Positions 9,900-19,650 of a stretch of 32,407 nucleotides of DNA are shown piece by piece. The stretch is from assembly GCF_003585965.1 (NCBI RefSeq), contig NZ_NRJF01000018.1, positions 1 through 32,407 on the forward strand, in the 5' to 3' direction. A program made the position numbers and the translations under genes. Position 1 is the first letter of the stretch; every line of letters starts with the position of its first letter. Origin of the DNA: Psittacicella gerlachiana (lineage in GTDB: Bacteria; Pseudomonadota; Gammaproteobacteria; Enterobacterales; Psittacicellaceae). Under the pieces are notes generated by a model, which saw nothing but the letters and a program-made list of their open reading frames with translations, had not been told where the DNA came from and made no database searches.

Positions 9900-12599
9900 T
9901 TACACTAAACCTGCAGGTGGTGGATTAAGGGGAGCAGTTTGTTGAGCACGGTTACCGTGACAGTGCTTAAATCTTAATCCTGAACCACAAGGACAAGGAT
10001 CATTACGTCCTACCCCCTCATACACATTTGCTTCTCCTGCATTAGGAGCTGCAATTGGAGTTGGTACAGGTTGTGGCTGTGGTTGAGCTGCTTGTTCTAC
10101 CTGAATTTTTGAAAGAATCGAGATAACATTATAATTTAAGTTATGCATTAAAGTCTCAAAAATCTCAAACGATTCGCGTTTGTATTCTTGTTTTGGATCT
10201 TTTTGAGCATAACCACGTAAGTGAATATGTTTACGTAAGTGTTCCATATCACTTAAGTGTTGACGCCAGAGGTCATCGATATTTTGCACAAATACCGTAC
10301 GCTCTACTGCAATACGTAATTCATCTCCCAGTTGAGTCATTTTCGCTTTATAAGCTTCAATTAATTTCTCTGCAATTTCACGGACAAAGTCTTGTTCTTG
10401 AAGAATTGCTGACTCTTCTAGACGTTGTTTTACTGAATAGTCTAGGTTAAAGTCATTTTTAATAATTGAATCTAAGCCCTCTAAATCCCATTGTTCATAT
10501 ACGGTATTAGGTGGCATAAAGCGAGAAATGAGATCTCCGATTACATCGTAAGTTTGGTTAATTAGTAACTCACTTAAATCATCTTTTTCGAGGATGTAAT
10601 CACGTTGTTGGTAGATTACCTTACGTTGTTCGTTAATTACATCATCATAACTAATTAAGTCTTTACGAATATCAAAGTTATGTGCTTCTACTTTACCTTG
10701 AGCATTAGCGATAAATCTAGACATAATTTTCATATCTAGGTAATCATCTTCATTGGTAAAGGCATTAGCTAGAGTTTTTAAGCGAGCTTCAGGGATAAAG
10801 ATACGTAATAAGTTATCTTCTAAAGATAAGTAGAAACGTGACGAGCCTGGATCTCCTTGACGTCCTGCACGCCCACGTAATTGGTTATCAATACGACGTG
10901 ATTCGTGACGTTCAGTACCAATAATTGCTAGACCTCCAGCATTACGTACTAGTTCGTTATCCTCTTCCCATTTTTTGTTTACAGCTACAATTTGTTCTTC
11001 AGTTGCTTCAGAACCTAATTCAGCAAGCATAGCTTTACGGTTGCCACCAAGGATAATATCGGTACCACGTCCAGCCATGTTCGTAGCAATAGTTACTGCT
11101 CCCGGTTTCCCCGCTTGAGCAATAATCTCTGCTTCACGCATGTGGAACTTAGCATTAAGTACTTGGTGAGTAATTCCCGCTTTAGTTAAGAATTGCGATA
11201 GAACTTCTGATTTCTCTACCGAAGCTGTACCTATAAGCACCGGTTGCCCACGAGCAATACGTTCTTTTACATCGTTTACTATAGCTTTAAATTTAGCCTT
11301 CTCAGTTTTAAAGAGAATATCAGGTAAATCGACACGAGCATTAGGACGATTTGGAGGTACAACAATAGTATCTAAGCTATAGATTTGATTAAACTCAAAA
11401 GCTTCGGTATCTGCCGTACCTGTCATCCCTGAAAGATTTTCATAAGTACGGAAGTAGTTTTGGTAAGTGATTGAAGCAATGGTAGTATTTTCAGCTTGAA
11501 TTGCTACGCCTTCTTTGGCTTCAATCGCTTGGTGTGTACCATCTCCCCAACGACGTCCTTCCATAGTACGTCCAGTATTAGGGTCAATAATCATAATTTG
11601 ATTATCTTGAACAATATAATCAACATTACGCTCAAATAAAGTATGAGCTCTTAAAGCTGCATTAAAGTAGTGCAGTAAAGATAAAGAACGAGTTGAATAT
11701 AAAGATTCTCCGTCTTGGAGTAAGCCTGCAACTGTAAGGATTTGTTCAACTTTTACTTGTCCTTGTTCAGTTAAGTGAACTTGACGATTTTTTAAGTCTA
11801 CAATGTAATCACCAGCTTGGCTCTCATCTTCAATTTCTTCTTTAGCTTGAGCTTTTAAGTGAGGAATTACTTTATTCATTGCCACACATAAATCGGTGGC
11901 ATCTGAAGCTTGCCCTGAAATAATTAATGGCGTACGTGCTTCATCGATAAGAATTGAATCAACCTCATCGATAATACAATAGTAGTGATCACGTTGTACT
12001 TTATCTTCTTTACGAGTTACAAGGTTGTCTCTTAGATAATCAAAACCTAATTCACTATTGGTTGCATAAGTAATATCGCAGTTATAAGCTTCACGTTTTT
12101 GTTCATTACTCATGCCTGAGAGGTTGATCCCTACTTTCATGCCAAGGAACTCAAATAGAGGCATGTTGTTTTTTGCGTCACGCTCGGCAAGATAGTCGTT
12201 TACTGTAACTACATGCACTCCACGTCCGCTGAGAGCGTGTAAATAAGAAGCCATGGTTGAAGTTAAAGTTTTCCCTTCCCCTGTTCTCATTTCTGCAATT
12301 GAACGTGAACATAAAACTAATGAACCTATTACTTGAACATCAAAAGGACGCATTCCGAGTACGCGTTTTGAAGCTTCACGTACTACAGCAAAGGCTTCAG
12401 GACGAATACTAATAAGAGATTCTCCTTTAGCTAAACGATCACGAAATTCTTGGGTTTTCGCTTTTAACTCTTCATCTGAAAGTTGCGCAATAGGTTCTTC
12501 GAGGTCATTGATTTTCTTTAGTTCACGACGCATACGAGCTAAGACACGGTCATTGCTCGAACCAAAGATTTTTGTAAAAAATGAAGTTAGTATACTCAT
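9900..12599 (-). CDS. secA: Preprotein translocase ATPase SecA
   Basis: SecA drives export of unfolded preproteins through SecYEG using ATP. The 899-aa protein matches the usual ~900 aa. The N-terminus ([18 protein letters not shown]) is collinear with other SecA proteins and fixes the start. Walker A is M-R-T-G-E-G-K-T (104-111). The DEAD-like Walker B is [11 protein letters not shown] (~212-222). The second helicase domain has T-N-M-A-G-R-G-T-D and the R-G-R-A-G-R-Q-G-D motif VI. The C-terminal zinc site C-P-C-x8-C-H (Cys869, Cys871, Cys880, His881) binds SecB and lipids in relatives. An unusual 18-residue tail follows the zinc site. The gene is preceded by a SecM-like leader gene. Its ATG has no Shine-Dalgarno within 25 nt; the only candidate, AAGGA at 12640-12636, is 36 nt upstream and sequestered by the leader's stop region (see the leader entries). 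Confidence 0.97.
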
Positions 12600-12629
12600 A
12601 AATTTATACGCATTTAGCCAAAGCTAAAT
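12596..12629 (-). promoter_or_regulatory. Hairpin and 5-codon mini-ORF joined to the secA start
   Basis: On the minus strand ATTTAGC-TTTG-GCTAAAT (12629-12612) is a perfect 7-bp hairpin between the AAGGA Shine-Dalgarno and secA. An ATG at 12613-12611 opens a frame M-R-I-N-L-stop whose TGA (12598-12596) overlaps the secA ATG as ATGA. No in-frame upstream start for secA exists before the TAG at 12626-12624. Re-initiation from the mini-ORF onto secA is possible but unproven. Confidence 0.4.
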
Positions 12630-12635
12630 TTTATT

Positions 12636-12725
12636 TCCTTAAATATATAAAAAAGACAACTCTTCTGGATGTTTAATCTCCAGAAATAAAAACATAACTA
12701 TAATGTTAAGGTCTTAATTTAAGGA
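12636..12725 (-). promoter_or_regulatory. SecM-type arrest-controlled RNA switch sequestering the secA Shine-Dalgarno
   Basis: On the minus strand the left arm TCCTTAAAT (12725-12717) consists of the last base of the Ala98 codon, the Pro99 codon CCT, the TAA stop and two more bases. It is a perfect 9-nt complement of ATTTAAGGA (12644-12636), the only Shine-Dalgarno-like sequence ahead of secA. Between the arms lies a nested hairpin, TTCTGGA/TCCAGAA (12685-12663, 7 bp, 9-nt loop). When the ribosome pauses on Pro99 it would occupy the whole left arm and release the Shine-Dalgarno, which is the E. coli secM-secA principle. The pairing is seen directly; the switching is inferred from the E. coli model. 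Confidence 0.7.
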
Positions 12726-13018
12726 GCGGCGCGAACTATACTGTAAGTTAAATAAGTTAACTCTCTACTTTCTTCTCTTTGTTGCTGAGGAAAGTAAAGA
12801 ATTACAGGTTTAACTTGTAAAGAATTTTTTAGAGTGCGTGCTTGAATAACCGGAGTTTTTAAACTAGTGTGTTTTTGCTTATTTAAAAGCATACTTACAT
12901 CATGTAAACGCTGTTGAGCCTGTACATGTTGGACGCTACTAAAAACTGCAGTTATTAAGATTAAACATGCCAGCAATGCACAACGATAGTTGCGGTGAAT
13001 AATTTTCTCTTGCTGCAT
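12719..13018 (-). CDS. secM: SecM-like secretion monitor / arrest peptide
   Basis: This 99-aa protein lies directly upstream of secA. Residues 1-34 form a Sec signal peptide: basic N-region, hydrophobic core ~13-27 and a V-Q-A|Q cleavage site. The mature part is only ~65 residues, polar, without a recognisable enzyme domain. It ends I-V-R-A-A-P-stop (94-99). E. coli SecM stalls the ribosome at ...G-I-R-A-G-P, with the Arg and the final Pro essential; here Arg96, Ala97 and Pro99 fall at the matching places, with Ala98 for Gly. The upstream Phe/Trp positions of the E. coli motif are not conserved; L-T-Y-L-T-Y precedes instead. E. coli SecM is 170 aa, so this is a short form. By the E. coli model, poor export prolongs the stall and raises SecA synthesis, while Sec pulling on the signal peptide relieves it. 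The ATG at 13018 has no Shine-Dalgarno; the start is chosen because it gives a complete signal peptide. Confidence 0.75.
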   Translation of the reverse strand: MQQEKIIHRNYRCALLACLILITAVFSSVQHVQAQQRLHDVSMLLNKQKHTSLKTPVIQARTLKNSLQVKPVILYFPQQQREESRELTYLTYSIVRAAP

Positions 13019-13057: not shown

Positions 13058-13086
13058 ATCTTACAAAATAATCGACATTTTAGCAA
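13058..13086 (-). promoter_or_regulatory. Promoter of the secM-secA operon
   Basis: On the minus strand TTGCTA (13086-13081) and TAAGAT (13063-13058) are 17 nt apart. The start codon of the leader gene is about 33 nt beyond the predicted start site. Upstream terminators isolate it from the MFS gene. Confidence 0.6.
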
Positions 13087-13164: not shown

Positions 13165-13196
13165 ATAAAAGCACAAGGAAAGTCTTGTGCTTTTAT
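13165..13196 (-). terminator. Intrinsic terminator of the MFS exporter gene
   Basis: ATAAAAGCACAAG (13165-13177) and CTTGTGCTTTTAT (13184-13196) form a perfect 13-bp stem with a 6-nt loop. On the minus strand it is followed by TCAAATTTTTTTTC. It begins 8 nt after the stop codon. Confidence 0.85.
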
Positions 13197-15123: not shown

Positions 15124-18100
15124 ATGAAAAAAACATTATTTTCGGCTTCTGAAGATCCCTTAGATATTTTAGAACCAGCAACACCAGAGGTTAAGTTAAG
15201 TTTTTCGCAACTCATGTCGCATTTAAAGTTAATGTTAGAAGTGCGAGATTACCTTTGGCAACAATTAGAACCAGAATTACCTAAGCATCTAGCTCAAGAG
15301 TTACACTTAAAGTATGCTTTAAGTGTCGAGGGGTTAATTTGCCCGAATTTAAAGATTAACTCGCAAGGGAAAATTGAAAAAATTATTATAAATTATTACT
15401 TTGCGGGTTATAGTGTGATTTTACGTCATGTCTTTACCCAGTTAGTAGCTCAGCTCAAAGAGCAAAGAAATTTTCAAGTGCTGCAAGCAGTAGAGTTTAG
15501 TGTAAAGTATGAACCGCAATTATTGCAGTCAGTGCAAGAGTATGATTTACAACTGCAAAAGCAAAGTCGAACGCAAGTAACTAATTATTTACATGATACA
15601 CAAGTAAGGCAACAAATTTATGCTCAACAAGTACGTCAACTCTTGGGAATAAGTGAACAAGAGTTTGCTCGATTAGTGGGGTATCAAGGTAACTTAGAGC
15701 AAGTACACAAACTCTTGCGCGAACGTGAGCGTGCTTTACAAGCTAATGTGCTTGATGTCGATGATCCAGAACTTAATGCACAAATCCATGCTTATGTAGA
15801 AAATCAACTAGAAACTCGTTTAACTTATCTCAAAGCTCAGCAACTCTCAGAGCAACAGTCTCAAGCCACTTATCAAGAAGTAAAACCAGCTACTTTACCG
15901 AGTTTTGTGAATGAAGAGCAGTTAAGATCACAAATTTTTTGGGAGACTTTAAGTCAGGCTCTTCAAGAAGGTCCTGTAGCACAAATTGCCGAGGCAGTAA
16001 GAGCTAAGTACAAGCAACAAACTAAAGCTCAAGTAGTAATCCCCTCAAGTCCGAGCCTCGAAGCTCTGCAAGAGCAAAAGGTAGATTTTACTCAAGAACT
16101 CGAGCAACAACAAAAATTGCGTCAGCAACGAGAGTTAGAAATTCTTGTTAGTGCTAATCTCGAAGTGATGACTCGAAAGTTAAGACAAAGCTTTCATCAA
16201 CAAGGGAAACAACTATTAAAGATTCTCTTTACCAAGCTTGATTTTAAATATTGGCAAGGTTTTTATCAACAATATGCTAATAAGTATTATCAAGCACAAG
16301 AAATTCTTAAGAGTAATCCTGAAAATAGCTTAGCTCAAGAGATCTTAACCGTGTTTAAACAACCGGTAAGCAAAAAACTTCTTGGAGATTTTGTTGATTT
16401 TACTTTTTCTCACTCTGCTAGTTGGCAAATTGGTGAGCATAAGTTAGATTTTCAACTAGATCAAAAAGAGTTTTTAGAGCAAGCTTTTCGTGATCCGCTT
16501 AACTTAATCGAGCTCTATCAAACTTTAGCGGTAGATAATAGTTTAGAGCAAATTATTTGGGAAGATGAGGCGGTAATTAGTAAGGTTTTAGCTGGAATAG
16601 ATTGGTTTACTTTTGCCGGTAATTATTTTCAAGAGCAAGTAGAACCTCTATTTAATAAAGAGTTAGTGCTTCAGTTTAATCTTACAGACTTAACTGTTTA
16701 TAATGAAAAAGTACAACAGTTGCAAGCTCAAGAACTCGCGATCCCCGCTCCTTTAACGCAGAGTCAGCAAATAGCTCAGTTAGATAAGATTCAAGCTCAG
16801 ATTAAGCAGTTAAGAAGTCAACAAGGACAAGAGTTAGCCTTACAGCAAGCTCTTGAATCCCCAAAATGGCAAGCTTATAAAGAGCAATTGCAAGCTTTTG
16901 GCTCACGAACTTTAACTTCGAGTTTAGAAGCAAATGCTTTAGAGAAGGAAGAAGAGGCTTTTGGTAAAAGTACAAAAACAGAATTACCTAAAGAGCCTCT
17001 AAAGTTAGAAGGATTTAAAGAATCCCAAAAGCTTCAAGAACCGAAAAAGCTCCAAGAAGCAAAAAAGCTTGCAGAGTCTTCAGCCTTGAAAGCTAAGACT
17101 ACCCCCTCGCTTGCTTCAACTCAGGCTGCTAACTCTCAATTTGCTTCACCAGCAGATTGGGATCTACTCTTAAATAATTTACAGCATAATTTACAACTGC
17201 AAGAAAAAGCTGAACAAGAACGTTTAGAGCAGAATTTAGCTCGTAAATTAGAGCAAGAAGAACAAAATCTAGCTTTAAGTAAAGCTAAACAAGAGCAAGG
17301 AGAGTTTAGTAAAGAGCAAGAGTACTTGCAGTATAAGCAAGAACAACAAGTTCAAGAGCTAACTAGTAAATTAAAAAACTTACAACAAGAAGTCGTAAAA
17401 GTTCTCCCGAAACAGCAACCGAATGCCGAACAAAAAGCTTTAATTCAAGCTTCAAGAGAGCAAGAACTACAGCAACAACAAGTACGTCAATGGGAACAGG
17501 CTCAACAGCAAGAGACTATTTGGCAACAATTAGCTCAGCAAGTTCCGCTCTATGCTCAAAGCCCTGAAGCTTATGAGTTTATTGTGCAGTTTACACAAGC
17601 TCTTGCTAAAGAGTTGTTTCGTAGTTTGACTTTTAGTGTAAATAATCGCAAGCTTCCTGCCGAGTTATTATCACAATTAAGTAAAGAAAAAAATGCTTAT
17701 GAATTGGCATTAGCTCGAGGCTATAATCCGGGATATCATCTCTTAAGACTACAAAATAAGTTCTTTAGTCGTCAGGAGAAGAAAGGACGTAAGCTTGCTA
17801 ACTATTTAGTTTACAGTAGTGATTTTATTGGTAAGGTGCCAAATGAGTTTTTCCTCCATGAAGAAAAAGCTCCTTATGTAGGGAAAATGGGAATGACCTT
17901 AGCTCTCAAACATGAAATAAATCAACAGCAAAGAGGAGCTAAGGGAAGCGATGAGCAAGAAAGTTTAGAGTTTGCTTATAAAGGAGAAAGCGAACTTGAT
18001 ACTTTAGATCCAAGTTTACCTTTAGAGCAAGCTATTACTAAGCTAGTAGATCAAAGGTATGAGCGTAAGGATCAAGAGTTTATTCGTCAGCTTTATCATA

Positions 18101-19650
18101 AGTATATTCATTGGTATCAACAACGAGAAGCTTCTTTACATCAAGAGCAAATTGCACATTATCTTTTTGAACAAGCTCGTGAGCTTTTAGGGAAAAAAGA
18201 ACAAAAGCAAGCTCTTAAATTAAAAGAACTCATTACCAAACGTACAAAAAATAATCTCGAACTTATAGTACCGATTTTTGAGCAAACCTATGTTCAAGAG
18301 CAAGTAAGCATGCGTACACAGCTCTATAAAGACTTTGATTTAATTCAGGCTTTAGTAGAGCTGAGTCAAGCGGGGATTAGCGTTGAGAAATTAATGAAAG
18401 TTAGTGCACAACTAAATCAAGAGGAGCATCCAATATTTGCTGGATTGATTGACTTAGTCGCAGATTATCAAGAACTTTTAGGGTTTAAGTTAATAAAAAT
18501 AACTCATGCAGATCAAACTCTACCTTTAACTGAAAGTGAGTTAAGGGAAAGAGCTAAAACTAGCAAAAAGTATCAAGAGATTCTTGATGATCCACAAAAG
18601 TTTGCTTCATGGTTAGCACAAAAACAACAGCAAGAAGCTTTACAAGAGAAACAATTTGCCCAAATGCTCAAGAAGGTACAACAGTTGCAACTAGAGCAAC
18701 AGCAAGCAGAGCAAGAGTTATTAAAGCAACAAGTGATAGAAGTAAAGCAGTCTAAAGCTAAAGAATCTACCCAAGATTTACATTTGCGAGCATGGGTAGG
18801 GACTAAGGTATCGACTTCGGGACAGCAACTTATAAAAAAAGCAGGTTGGAAACAAAACAATAGCTTTAAAGTTGCTCCTGAAGTGAATCAAGTAATTAAG
18901 CAACTACAGCGTCAATTACATGAGCAAAAGCAAGTTGAGGAGATAGATTTTACGCAATTTATCGATCATGAGGAGTTAGATTTAATTAATGTTTATCAAA
19001 AAATGGTCTTAAATCCTCAGCTAGCTGCTCTAGAAAGCCTTGCTCAAGAAGCTAACTTAAGTAGTTTTTGTGCTTTTAGTGAAGCTCCTTTTGAGCCTTT
19101 AAGCTATACTAGCCAAGAGTTGGCACAGTTACAAGCAGAATACACTTGGAAATTAGCACAAGAGGAAAACTCTAATCTTGAGCCTGAGCTTACAATGCAA
19201 GGGTTAGAGATCCAGGATGAGGGGGGATTAAATGCTTTTGCTCTTCAGCCTAAGAGTCAAGAGTTTTATTCCTTATTTGAATATAAACAACAAAAAGCTC
19301 AGGTTTCTTGGTTGCACGCAAAAGATCCTTGGCAACCAAAAATCGAGAGCGAAGATTTGGAACCTGTTCCTATCGATAATTTAACCCATGCTCCTCATTA
19401 CCAAAGTTTACAGCAGGAGCAACAAGAGCATTTGCAAGCTTTATTGCAAAAGAAAGTAGACAGTATTTTTACTGCCTCTAATGAGCAAGAGCTAGCCCAA
19501 AAGTTAGCTTTAATTAAGCAACGCAATGCCGAACGGCGAGCTCGTGGACAACAAGAGATTAGTTTTGCTGCTCAAGAGCAAGTGAGTTTGGAAGAACAAG
19601 CTCAAGAGTTCGAAGCCAAACGCAAGGCATTAAAAAACCTAGAGGATTAA
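15124..19650 (+). CDS. Giant Gln-rich coiled-coil protein with DciA/DUF721-like N-terminus
   Basis: This 1508-aa protein has no membrane helix or signal peptide. Residues ~28-131 match the pattern of the DciA (DUF721) fold: a helix L-M-S-H-L-K-L-M-L-E-V, L-W-Q-Q-L-E-P-E-L-P-K-H-L, a beta strand (I-E-K-I-I-I-N-Y-Y-F-A), a helix with S-V-I-L-R-H-V-F-T-Q-L, and a final strand V-E-F-S-V-K-Y. DciA loads the replicative helicase DnaB in bacteria without DnaC. In many gammaproteobacteria dciA lies near secA, as this gene does (about 2 kb away), which supports the reading. The remaining ~1370 residues are rich in Gln, Glu, Lys and Leu with long heptad-like stretches, predicted coiled coil, and a K-L-Q-E repeat-like linker near 630-665. 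No second domain is recognised. Ordinary DciA proteins are 100-200 aa, so this would be an extreme extension. Alternatively it is an unrelated structural protein. No Shine-Dalgarno precedes the ATG. Confidence 0.5.
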   Translation: MKKTLFSASEDPLDILEPATPEVKLSFSQLMSHLKLMLEVRDYLWQQLEPELPKHLAQELHLKYALSVEGLICPNLKINSQGKIEKIIINYYFAGYSVILRHVFTQLVAQLKEQRNFQVLQAVEFSVKYEPQLLQSVQEYDLQLQKQSRTQVTNYLHDTQVRQQIYAQQVRQLLGISEQEFARLVGYQGNLEQVHKLLRERERALQANVLDVDDPELNAQIHAYVENQLETRLTYLKAQQLSEQQSQATYQEVKPATLPSFVNEEQLRSQIFWETLSQALQEGPVAQIAEAVRAKYKQQTKAQVVIPSSPSLEALQEQKVDFTQELEQQQKLRQQRELEILVSANLEVMTRKLRQSFHQQGKQLLKILFTKLDFKYWQGFYQQYANKYYQAQEILKSNPENSLAQEILTVFKQPVSKKLLGDFVDFTFSHSASWQIGEHKLDFQLDQKEFLEQAFRDPLNLIELYQTLAVDNSLEQIIWEDEAVISKVLAGIDWFTFAGNYFQEQVEPLFNKELVLQFNLTDLTVYNEKVQQLQAQELAIPAPLTQSQQIAQLDKIQAQIKQLRSQQGQELALQQALESPKWQAYKEQLQAFGSRTLTSSLEANALEKEEEAFGKSTKTELPKEPLKLEGFKESQKLQEPKKLQEAKKLAESSALKAKTTPSLASTQAANSQFASPADWDLLLNNLQHNLQLQEKAEQERLEQNLARKLEQEEQNLALSKAKQEQGEFSKEQEYLQYKQEQQVQELTSKLKNLQQEVVKVLPKQQPNAEQKALIQASREQELQQQQVRQWEQAQQQETIWQQLAQQVPLYAQSPEAYEFIVQFTQALAKELFRSLTFSVNNRKLPAELLSQLSKEKNAYELALARGYNPGYHLLRLQNKFFSRQEKKGRKLANYLVYSSDFIGKVPNEFFLHEEKAPYVGKMGMTLALKHEINQQQRGAKGSDEQESLEFAYKGESELDTLDPSLPLEQAITKLVDQRYERKDQEFIRQLYHKYIHWYQQREASLHQEQIAHYLFEQARELLGKKEQKQALKLKELITKRTKNNLELIVPIFEQTYVQEQVSMRTQLYKDFDLIQALVELSQAGISVEKLMKVSAQLNQEEHPIFAGLIDLVADYQELLGFKLIKITHADQTLPLTESELRERAKTSKKYQEILDDPQKFASWLAQKQQQEALQEKQFAQMLKKVQQLQLEQQQAEQELLKQQVIEVKQSKAKESTQDLHLRAWVGTKVSTSGQQLIKKAGWKQNNSFKVAPEVNQVIKQLQRQLHEQKQVEEIDFTQFIDHEELDLINVYQKMVLNPQLAALESLAQEANLSSFCAFSEAPFEPLSYTSQELAQLQAEYTWKLAQEENSNLEPELTMQGLEIQDEGGLNAFALQPKSQEFYSLFEYKQQKAQVSWLHAKDPWQPKIESEDLEPVPIDNLTHAPHYQSLQQEQQEHLQALLQKKVDSIFTASNEQELAQKLALIKQRNAERRARGQQEISFAAQEQVSLEEQAQEFEAKRKALKNLED

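Follow-up and report, generated by a model that had tools for sequence, protein, structure and literature searches.

An Ala-Pro-stop leader upstream of secA in Psittacicella as a candidate secretion monitor

Psittacicella gerlachiana belongs to a bacterial genus that is known from birds. Its secA gene, which encodes the motor of protein export, is preceded by a short open reading frame that, judged by its sequence, is fairly likely to encode a secretion-monitor arrest leader for secA with an Ala-Pro-stop core. Within the window, i.e. the whole stretch of 32,407 nucleotides that was analysed, this leader occupies positions 12719-13018 on the minus strand, immediately 5′ of secA (Table 1). As an earlier note on this DNA had described, it is a 99-aa protein with an N-terminal signal peptide and an R-A-A-P-stop end. 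The comparative analysis showed a conserved leader, a selected C-terminus, and a predicted helix that is conserved together with its register. Among the papers found to mention Psittacicella, none, judged by title and abstract, deals with arrest peptides, and the genus is not named in the main text of PMC10987492.

Table 1. Features of the leader-secA region in the window, with the evidence for each
Feature	Position	Strand	Evidence
secA, 899 aa, ATG at 12599	9900..12599	-	Pfam SecA domains
Hairpin ATTTAGC-TTTG-GCTAAAT, 3′ of AAGGA and 5′ of the secA ATG	12612..12629	-	MFE; analogous AGCAGT/ACTGCT in G003
Predicted 3′ arm ATTTAAGGA, including AAGGA 36 nt 5′ of the secA ATG	12636..12644	-	Sequence; fold; genome spacing norm
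Nested hairpin TTCTGGA/TCCAGAA between the arms	12663..12685	-	Fold
Second CCTTAA, alternative AAGG partner just beyond a stalled ribosome	12706..12711	-	Sequence
Predicted 5′ arm TCCTTAAAT, from the final nt of the Ala98 codon through the Pro99 codon and the stop to 2 nt beyond	12717..12725	-	MFE; base-pair probabilities 0.71-0.96
C-terminal motif Y-S-I-V-R-A-A-P and stop	12719..12745	-	Four-species alignment; G000 vs G002 substitutions
Candidate secretion-monitor leader ORF of secA	12719..13018	-	ORF listing; orthologues just 5′ of secA in three congeners
Signal peptide MQQEKIIHRNYRCALLACLILITAVFSSVQHVQA, putative cleavage site	12917..13018	-	Hydrophobicity maximum (KD 3.05) at residue 15, preceded by a net charge of +2; best-conserved part of the alignment
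Putative sigma-70-like promoter TTGCTA-17 nt-TAAGAT, 5′ of the leader	13058..13086	-	Block shared by three of the four species

In regard to the conservation of the leader, the comparison comprised four Psittacicella genomes of one genus, that of the window's species (G000) and three congeners (G001, G002 and G003), its closest relatives by SecA (93, 90 and 87% identity; P. melopsittaci B96_4 and two genomes named P. hinzii, B96_3 and 111). The order MFS transporter gene, leader, secA is the same in all of them, and the leader, 99-103 aa long, always lies directly 5′ of secA. Its signal peptide is conserved, with invariant Y-R, A, L-A-C, I and T-A-V-F, the mature middle is freely variable and carries indels, and conservation returns only at the very end. 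There the four sequences read YSIVRAAP, YSLMPLAP, YSIVRAAP and HSIYIAAP, each followed by the stop codon, which gives a shared ending S-[I/L]-x-x-[A/L]-A-P-stop with S, A, P and the stop invariant in the genus. In the last eight codons, all 7 nucleotide differences between the window's species and G002 are synonymous and none is nonsynonymous (P = 2e-5 if substitutions were random), indicating selection on the peptide and not on the RNA alone. On these comparisons, the leader peptide is real and its C-terminus is under selection. A C-terminal Pro is rare in the window's genome (2 of 95 ORFs), and the constant position of the stop may reflect simple inheritance, given that the four genomes represent one genus. 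A scan of the genome collection with the single leader peptide returned no match, and the same scan with the four-sequence alignment returned only Psittacicella and one chance Terrihalobacillus match. Likewise, a search of the leader peptide against 59 relatives gave only chance matches outside the genus, and no comparable leader was found within about 200 nt upstream of secD.

The position occupied by Arg in the R-A-A-P ending of the window's species is R, P, R and I in the four species. The earlier note had proposed R-A-x-P as the arrest core and a SecM-like leader acting through an RNA switch. Aligning the relatives, the check that it had suggested, recovered A-P-stop in all four species and, in G002, the helix register built from other sequence, but R-A-x-P in only two of the four. 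The leader itself and a predicted helix arm at the putative arrest site hold in four genomes, and the proposed core is not supported, Arg being replaced by Pro or Ile in two congeners and RAAP not being tolerated in the arrest peptide ApdP. The R-A-A-P ending is thus suggestive, but it is not what the genus conserves. The branching order of the four species was not resolved in the SecA tree, and gain and loss of Arg are consequently not polarised.

Several families of arrest peptides offer a comparison. In E. coli SecM, an export-sensitive stall adjusts SecA output, and the motif is FxxxxWIxxxxGIRAGP. The Psittacicella leaders share with it a predicted helix that begins, on its 5′ side, at the A-site Pro codon and has its pairing partner immediately 5′ of secA, but they lack the F, W and G residues and a conserved R, and their stop directly follows the Pro. 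The SecM_small leaders of Pasteurellaceae (PF10818) are alike in being signal-peptide leaders of about 100 aa just 5′ of secA with a similar spacer, and in many of them a helix likewise lies in the intergenic region, close to where the ORF ends. However, R-A-G-P or R-G-S-P is kept in all 61 Pasteurellaceae secA leaders surveyed, with 0-7 and usually 2-4 residues between the motif and the stop, whereas Psittacicella always has A-P-stop. The distance from the hydrophobic core (h-region) of the signal peptide to the C-terminus, 73-78 residues in the four Psittacicella leaders, agrees with the median of 71 from signal to arrest site given for the short SecM of Pasteurellaceae in PMC10987492. The same paper lists features of a monitoring substrate, namely a localization signal, a spacer of >30 aa, a conserved C-terminus, the lack of an annotated function and a position upstream of a sec gene, and the Psittacicella leader has each of these.

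The absence of the E. coli Phe/Trp anchors had been taken by the earlier note as the sign of a distinct class. Most of the Pasteurellaceae short SecM leaders that were read also lack the E. coli F/W pattern, so this absence by itself does not define a new class. One Pasteurellaceae leader (L115, genome G095) ends in LPPIRAGP-stop, and RAGP at the very C-terminus is therefore already found in the related family. A further secA leader candidate of the same order (L017, genome G028), 176 aa long, ends in HIRAEP-IC-stop, where Glu is an unusual third residue for the RAxP type.

Read as a diverged standard SecM, the leader would undergo elongation arrest: Ala98-tRNA would occupy the P site and Pro99-tRNA the A site, Arg96 would be the driving residue, as Arg is in RAGP, and the arrest would be weakened or lost in the congeners without Arg. 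Gene position and size do match SecM_small of the related family, V-R-A-A-P is kept in two of the four species, and one Pasteurellaceae leader ends in RAGP-stop. On the other hand, Arg is present in 61 of 61 Pasteurellaceae leaders and in only half of the Psittacicella ones. The Psittacicella leaders match neither of the SecM profiles PF06558 and PF10818, the latter being matched by two Pasteurellaceae controls (8e-20 and 6e-23), and in a profile-profile comparison no relation was found (probability 0.1%). Furthermore, saturation mutagenesis found Arg to be irreplaceable in the RAPP type and, in ApdP, only Gly to replace the Pro of the third position in part, RAAP (P133A) being inactive (PMC12992588); a citation in the same paper extends the irreplaceable Arg to SecM. 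We thus consider a diverged standard SecM unlikely. The loss of Arg in two of four species, its irreplaceability and the inactivity of RAAP in ApdP leave the SecM/RAPP label without support; an arrest at Ala-Pro-stop, which may take place at termination as it does in NAP-stop and NSP-stop peptides, would fit better.

The RAPP types ApdA, ApdP and ApcA and the RQH family resemble the Psittacicella leaders in having a short C-terminal motif of small residues and Pro. The third residue Ala of Psittacicella nevertheless lies outside their pattern, Arg is not conserved, and the RQH core (R/Q/H)-(A/G/D)-(P/G/S)-(P/G) is matched by none of RAAP, PLAP, RAAP and IAAP. With NAP-stop and NSP-stop, the likeness is that of sec-gene leaders ending in x-A-P or x-S-P and then stop, and Pro directly before the stop is found in four of four Psittacicella leaders. 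Neither the key Asn at -3 nor, for NSP-stop, the Lys at -5 occurs in Psittacicella, however, position -3 being A, L, A and A, and the sequences and phyla are unrelated. Arrest in NAP-stop and NSP-stop requires the stop codon, whereas for Psittacicella a need for the stop codon itself, i.e. an arrest at termination, is a guess that leans slightly towards yes.

Since Arg is not conserved and the stop always follows the Pro, an Arg-independent Pro-stop arrest is favoured over one of the RAGP type. The features shared with SecM and SecM_small are the signal-peptide ORF just 5′ of secA and, in all four species, a predicted helix connecting the putative arrest site with the secA initiation region; the Arg of R-A-G-P/R-G-S-P is not kept. 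The leader probably works in a SecM-like manner, yet it departs from SecM in two features, the profile match and the conserved Arg, and its stall sequence has probably drifted from the arginine-dependent one of SecM. As a tentative proposal, Psittacicella may use an Arg-independent Ala-Pro-stop arrest, probably at termination, where Pasteurellaceae use an Arg-dependent R-A-G-P elongation arrest, with the arm of the secA RNA switch placed on the same Pro-stop codons.

On the RNA, the 9-nt complementarity that the earlier note had pointed out is exact: TCCTTAAAT (12725-12717) is the complement of ATTTAAGGA (12644-12636) over exactly 9 bp, with the hairpin 12685-12663 nested between them. Minimum-energy folding of the segment running from the end of the leader to secA gave a helix in all four species. 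Its 5′ arm begins at or close to the Pro codon and extends across the stop, and the domain that it closes contains one or more strong nested hairpins, which in the congeners differ in sequence; the secA ATG itself is outside the helix. Spacer shuffling was used to evaluate how strongly nucleotides -1 to +5, counted from the Pro codon, pair with the 60 nt immediately 5′ of secA. Mean pairing by species was 0.94, 0.93, 0.63 and 0.56, and the shuffle p values were 0.007 (0.7% of shuffles, window's species), 0.032, 0.049 and 0.128. Jointly, p = 6e-5 for the four congeners, a value to be read with the register window chosen after the folds had been seen and with the species related, three of the four sharing related arm sequences and not being fully independent. 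A broader pairing window tried earlier gave weaker single-species values (0.10, 0.28, 0.04 and 0.15), and folding energy over the four species gave a Stouffer Z of -5.0. In G002, which has CCA for Pro and neither CTCCTTA nor AAGGA, a helix forms in the same register with CCATAATTTC; the helix topology is thus predicted to be kept in four Psittacicella genomes although one of them uses a different sequence.

The coincidence of stall site and switch arm, which the earlier note considered special to this leader, is found in E. coli as well, where the fold of secM-secA places the 5′ arm at +1 to +9 of the Pro166 codon, i.e. from nucleotide 2 of the codon. The Psittacicella arm (-1 to +7) lies one or two nucleotides from that position, and the Pasteurellaceae arm lies on average at +8 to +19; with a predicted E. 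coli arm that also begins inside the Pro166 codon, the position in Psittacicella is hardly new. A ribosome covers about 15 nt downstream of its P site, and one stalled at the Pro step would, in these models, cover all or part of the 5′ arm in Psittacicella, E. coli and Pasteurellaceae. When the footprint was masked in the fold, the unpaired probability of AAGGA rose from 0.03 to about 0.22, so that it mostly stayed paired, partly, as we infer, because the second CCTTAA (12711-12706) is available; the E. coli control changed little (0.26 to about 0.37). The masked fold therefore gives no clean switch, and with an E. coli control that hardly moved either, the masking test is a weak one.

According to the mechanism that we propose, the signal peptide would direct the growing chain to the Sec machinery at the time when its final codons are being translated, and S-[I/L]-x-x-[A/L]-A-P-stop would slow the ribosome at the Ala-Pro or the Pro-stop step. 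The stalled ribosome would then cover the 5′ arm of the helix, freeing the sequence 5′ of secA that this helix otherwise keeps paired and leading to more secA translation, and export, by pulling on the chain, would release the stall. Alternatively, the leader could be a small exported protein of unrelated function, its C-terminus being kept for that function and the intergenic fold being merely a processing or stability element. Structure alone is indeed no proof of regulation, but the highly variable mature region with conservation at the very end only, together with the Pro-stop ending and the helix predicted over those codons in four of four species, makes this improbable. An explanation at the RNA level only, in which GCT-CCT-TAA is kept since CUCCUUA has the sequence of the 16S anti-Shine-Dalgarno tail and base-pairs with AAGGA, Ala-Pro being incidental, agrees with three of the four species having CTCCTTA at the stop (9, 8 and 6 bp with AAGGA), yet it is very improbable, already weakened by G002, which recodes A-A-P-stop as GCT-GCG-CCA-TAA with CTCCTTA broken and no AAGGA, all 7 of its differences in the last eight codons being synonymous.

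New arrest peptides seem to appear 5′ of sec genes often, and existing ones to change often, but few loci can be traced from one arrest chemistry to another. In the present case, a family whose RAGP is invariant stands beside a genus that keeps only Ala-Pro-stop, with natural variants that have or lack Arg, and with four short sequences the question of how an arrest motif can be replaced under a working RNA switch becomes directly testable.

The region around the secA start adds a further aspect. The earlier note had named AAGGA as the only Shine-Dalgarno candidate for secA, and it is the only such motif there, but its distance of 36 nt from the ATG stands against a norm of 3-12 nt. In 95 ORFs from 168 kb of the window's genome, Shine-Dalgarno-like 4-mers are concentrated 3-12 nt 5′ of the start, where 37 of the ORFs have one; they peak at 4-10 nt and are rare beyond 12. 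Because of this gap, it is doubtful that AAGGA acts as an ordinary Shine-Dalgarno sequence. In the congeners, the gap is 15 nt in G001 and 32 nt in G003, and G002 has no AAGGA. If folded, the hairpin in the gap would leave an effective distance of 18 nt for the window's species and of about 12 nt for G003, and a structured spacer or standby site before secA is possible. A five-codon ORF ATGCGTATAAATTTATGA (12613-12596), considered as coupled to the secA start, was dropped, the congeners having no such ORF. The 16S 3′ end of G003 (L179) reads GGATTACCTCCTT in place of the usual GGATCACCTCCTT, with the anti-Shine-Dalgarno itself unchanged.

Elsewhere in the window, the 1508-aa ORF at 15124-19650 on the plus strand had no Pfam match at 1e-4 and was the sole large ORF without a family among those scanned. 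At the start of the leader (13018, minus strand), none of the four species has a Shine-Dalgarno sequence, and the sequence 5′ of the ATG is mostly U-rich. Further upstream, a terminator-like hairpin AAAAGCACAAG/CTTGTGCTTTT (13166-13194, minus strand) lies 3′ of the MFS gene and is followed by the TTGCTA-17-TAAGAT site (13086-13058), the block being kept in three of the four species.
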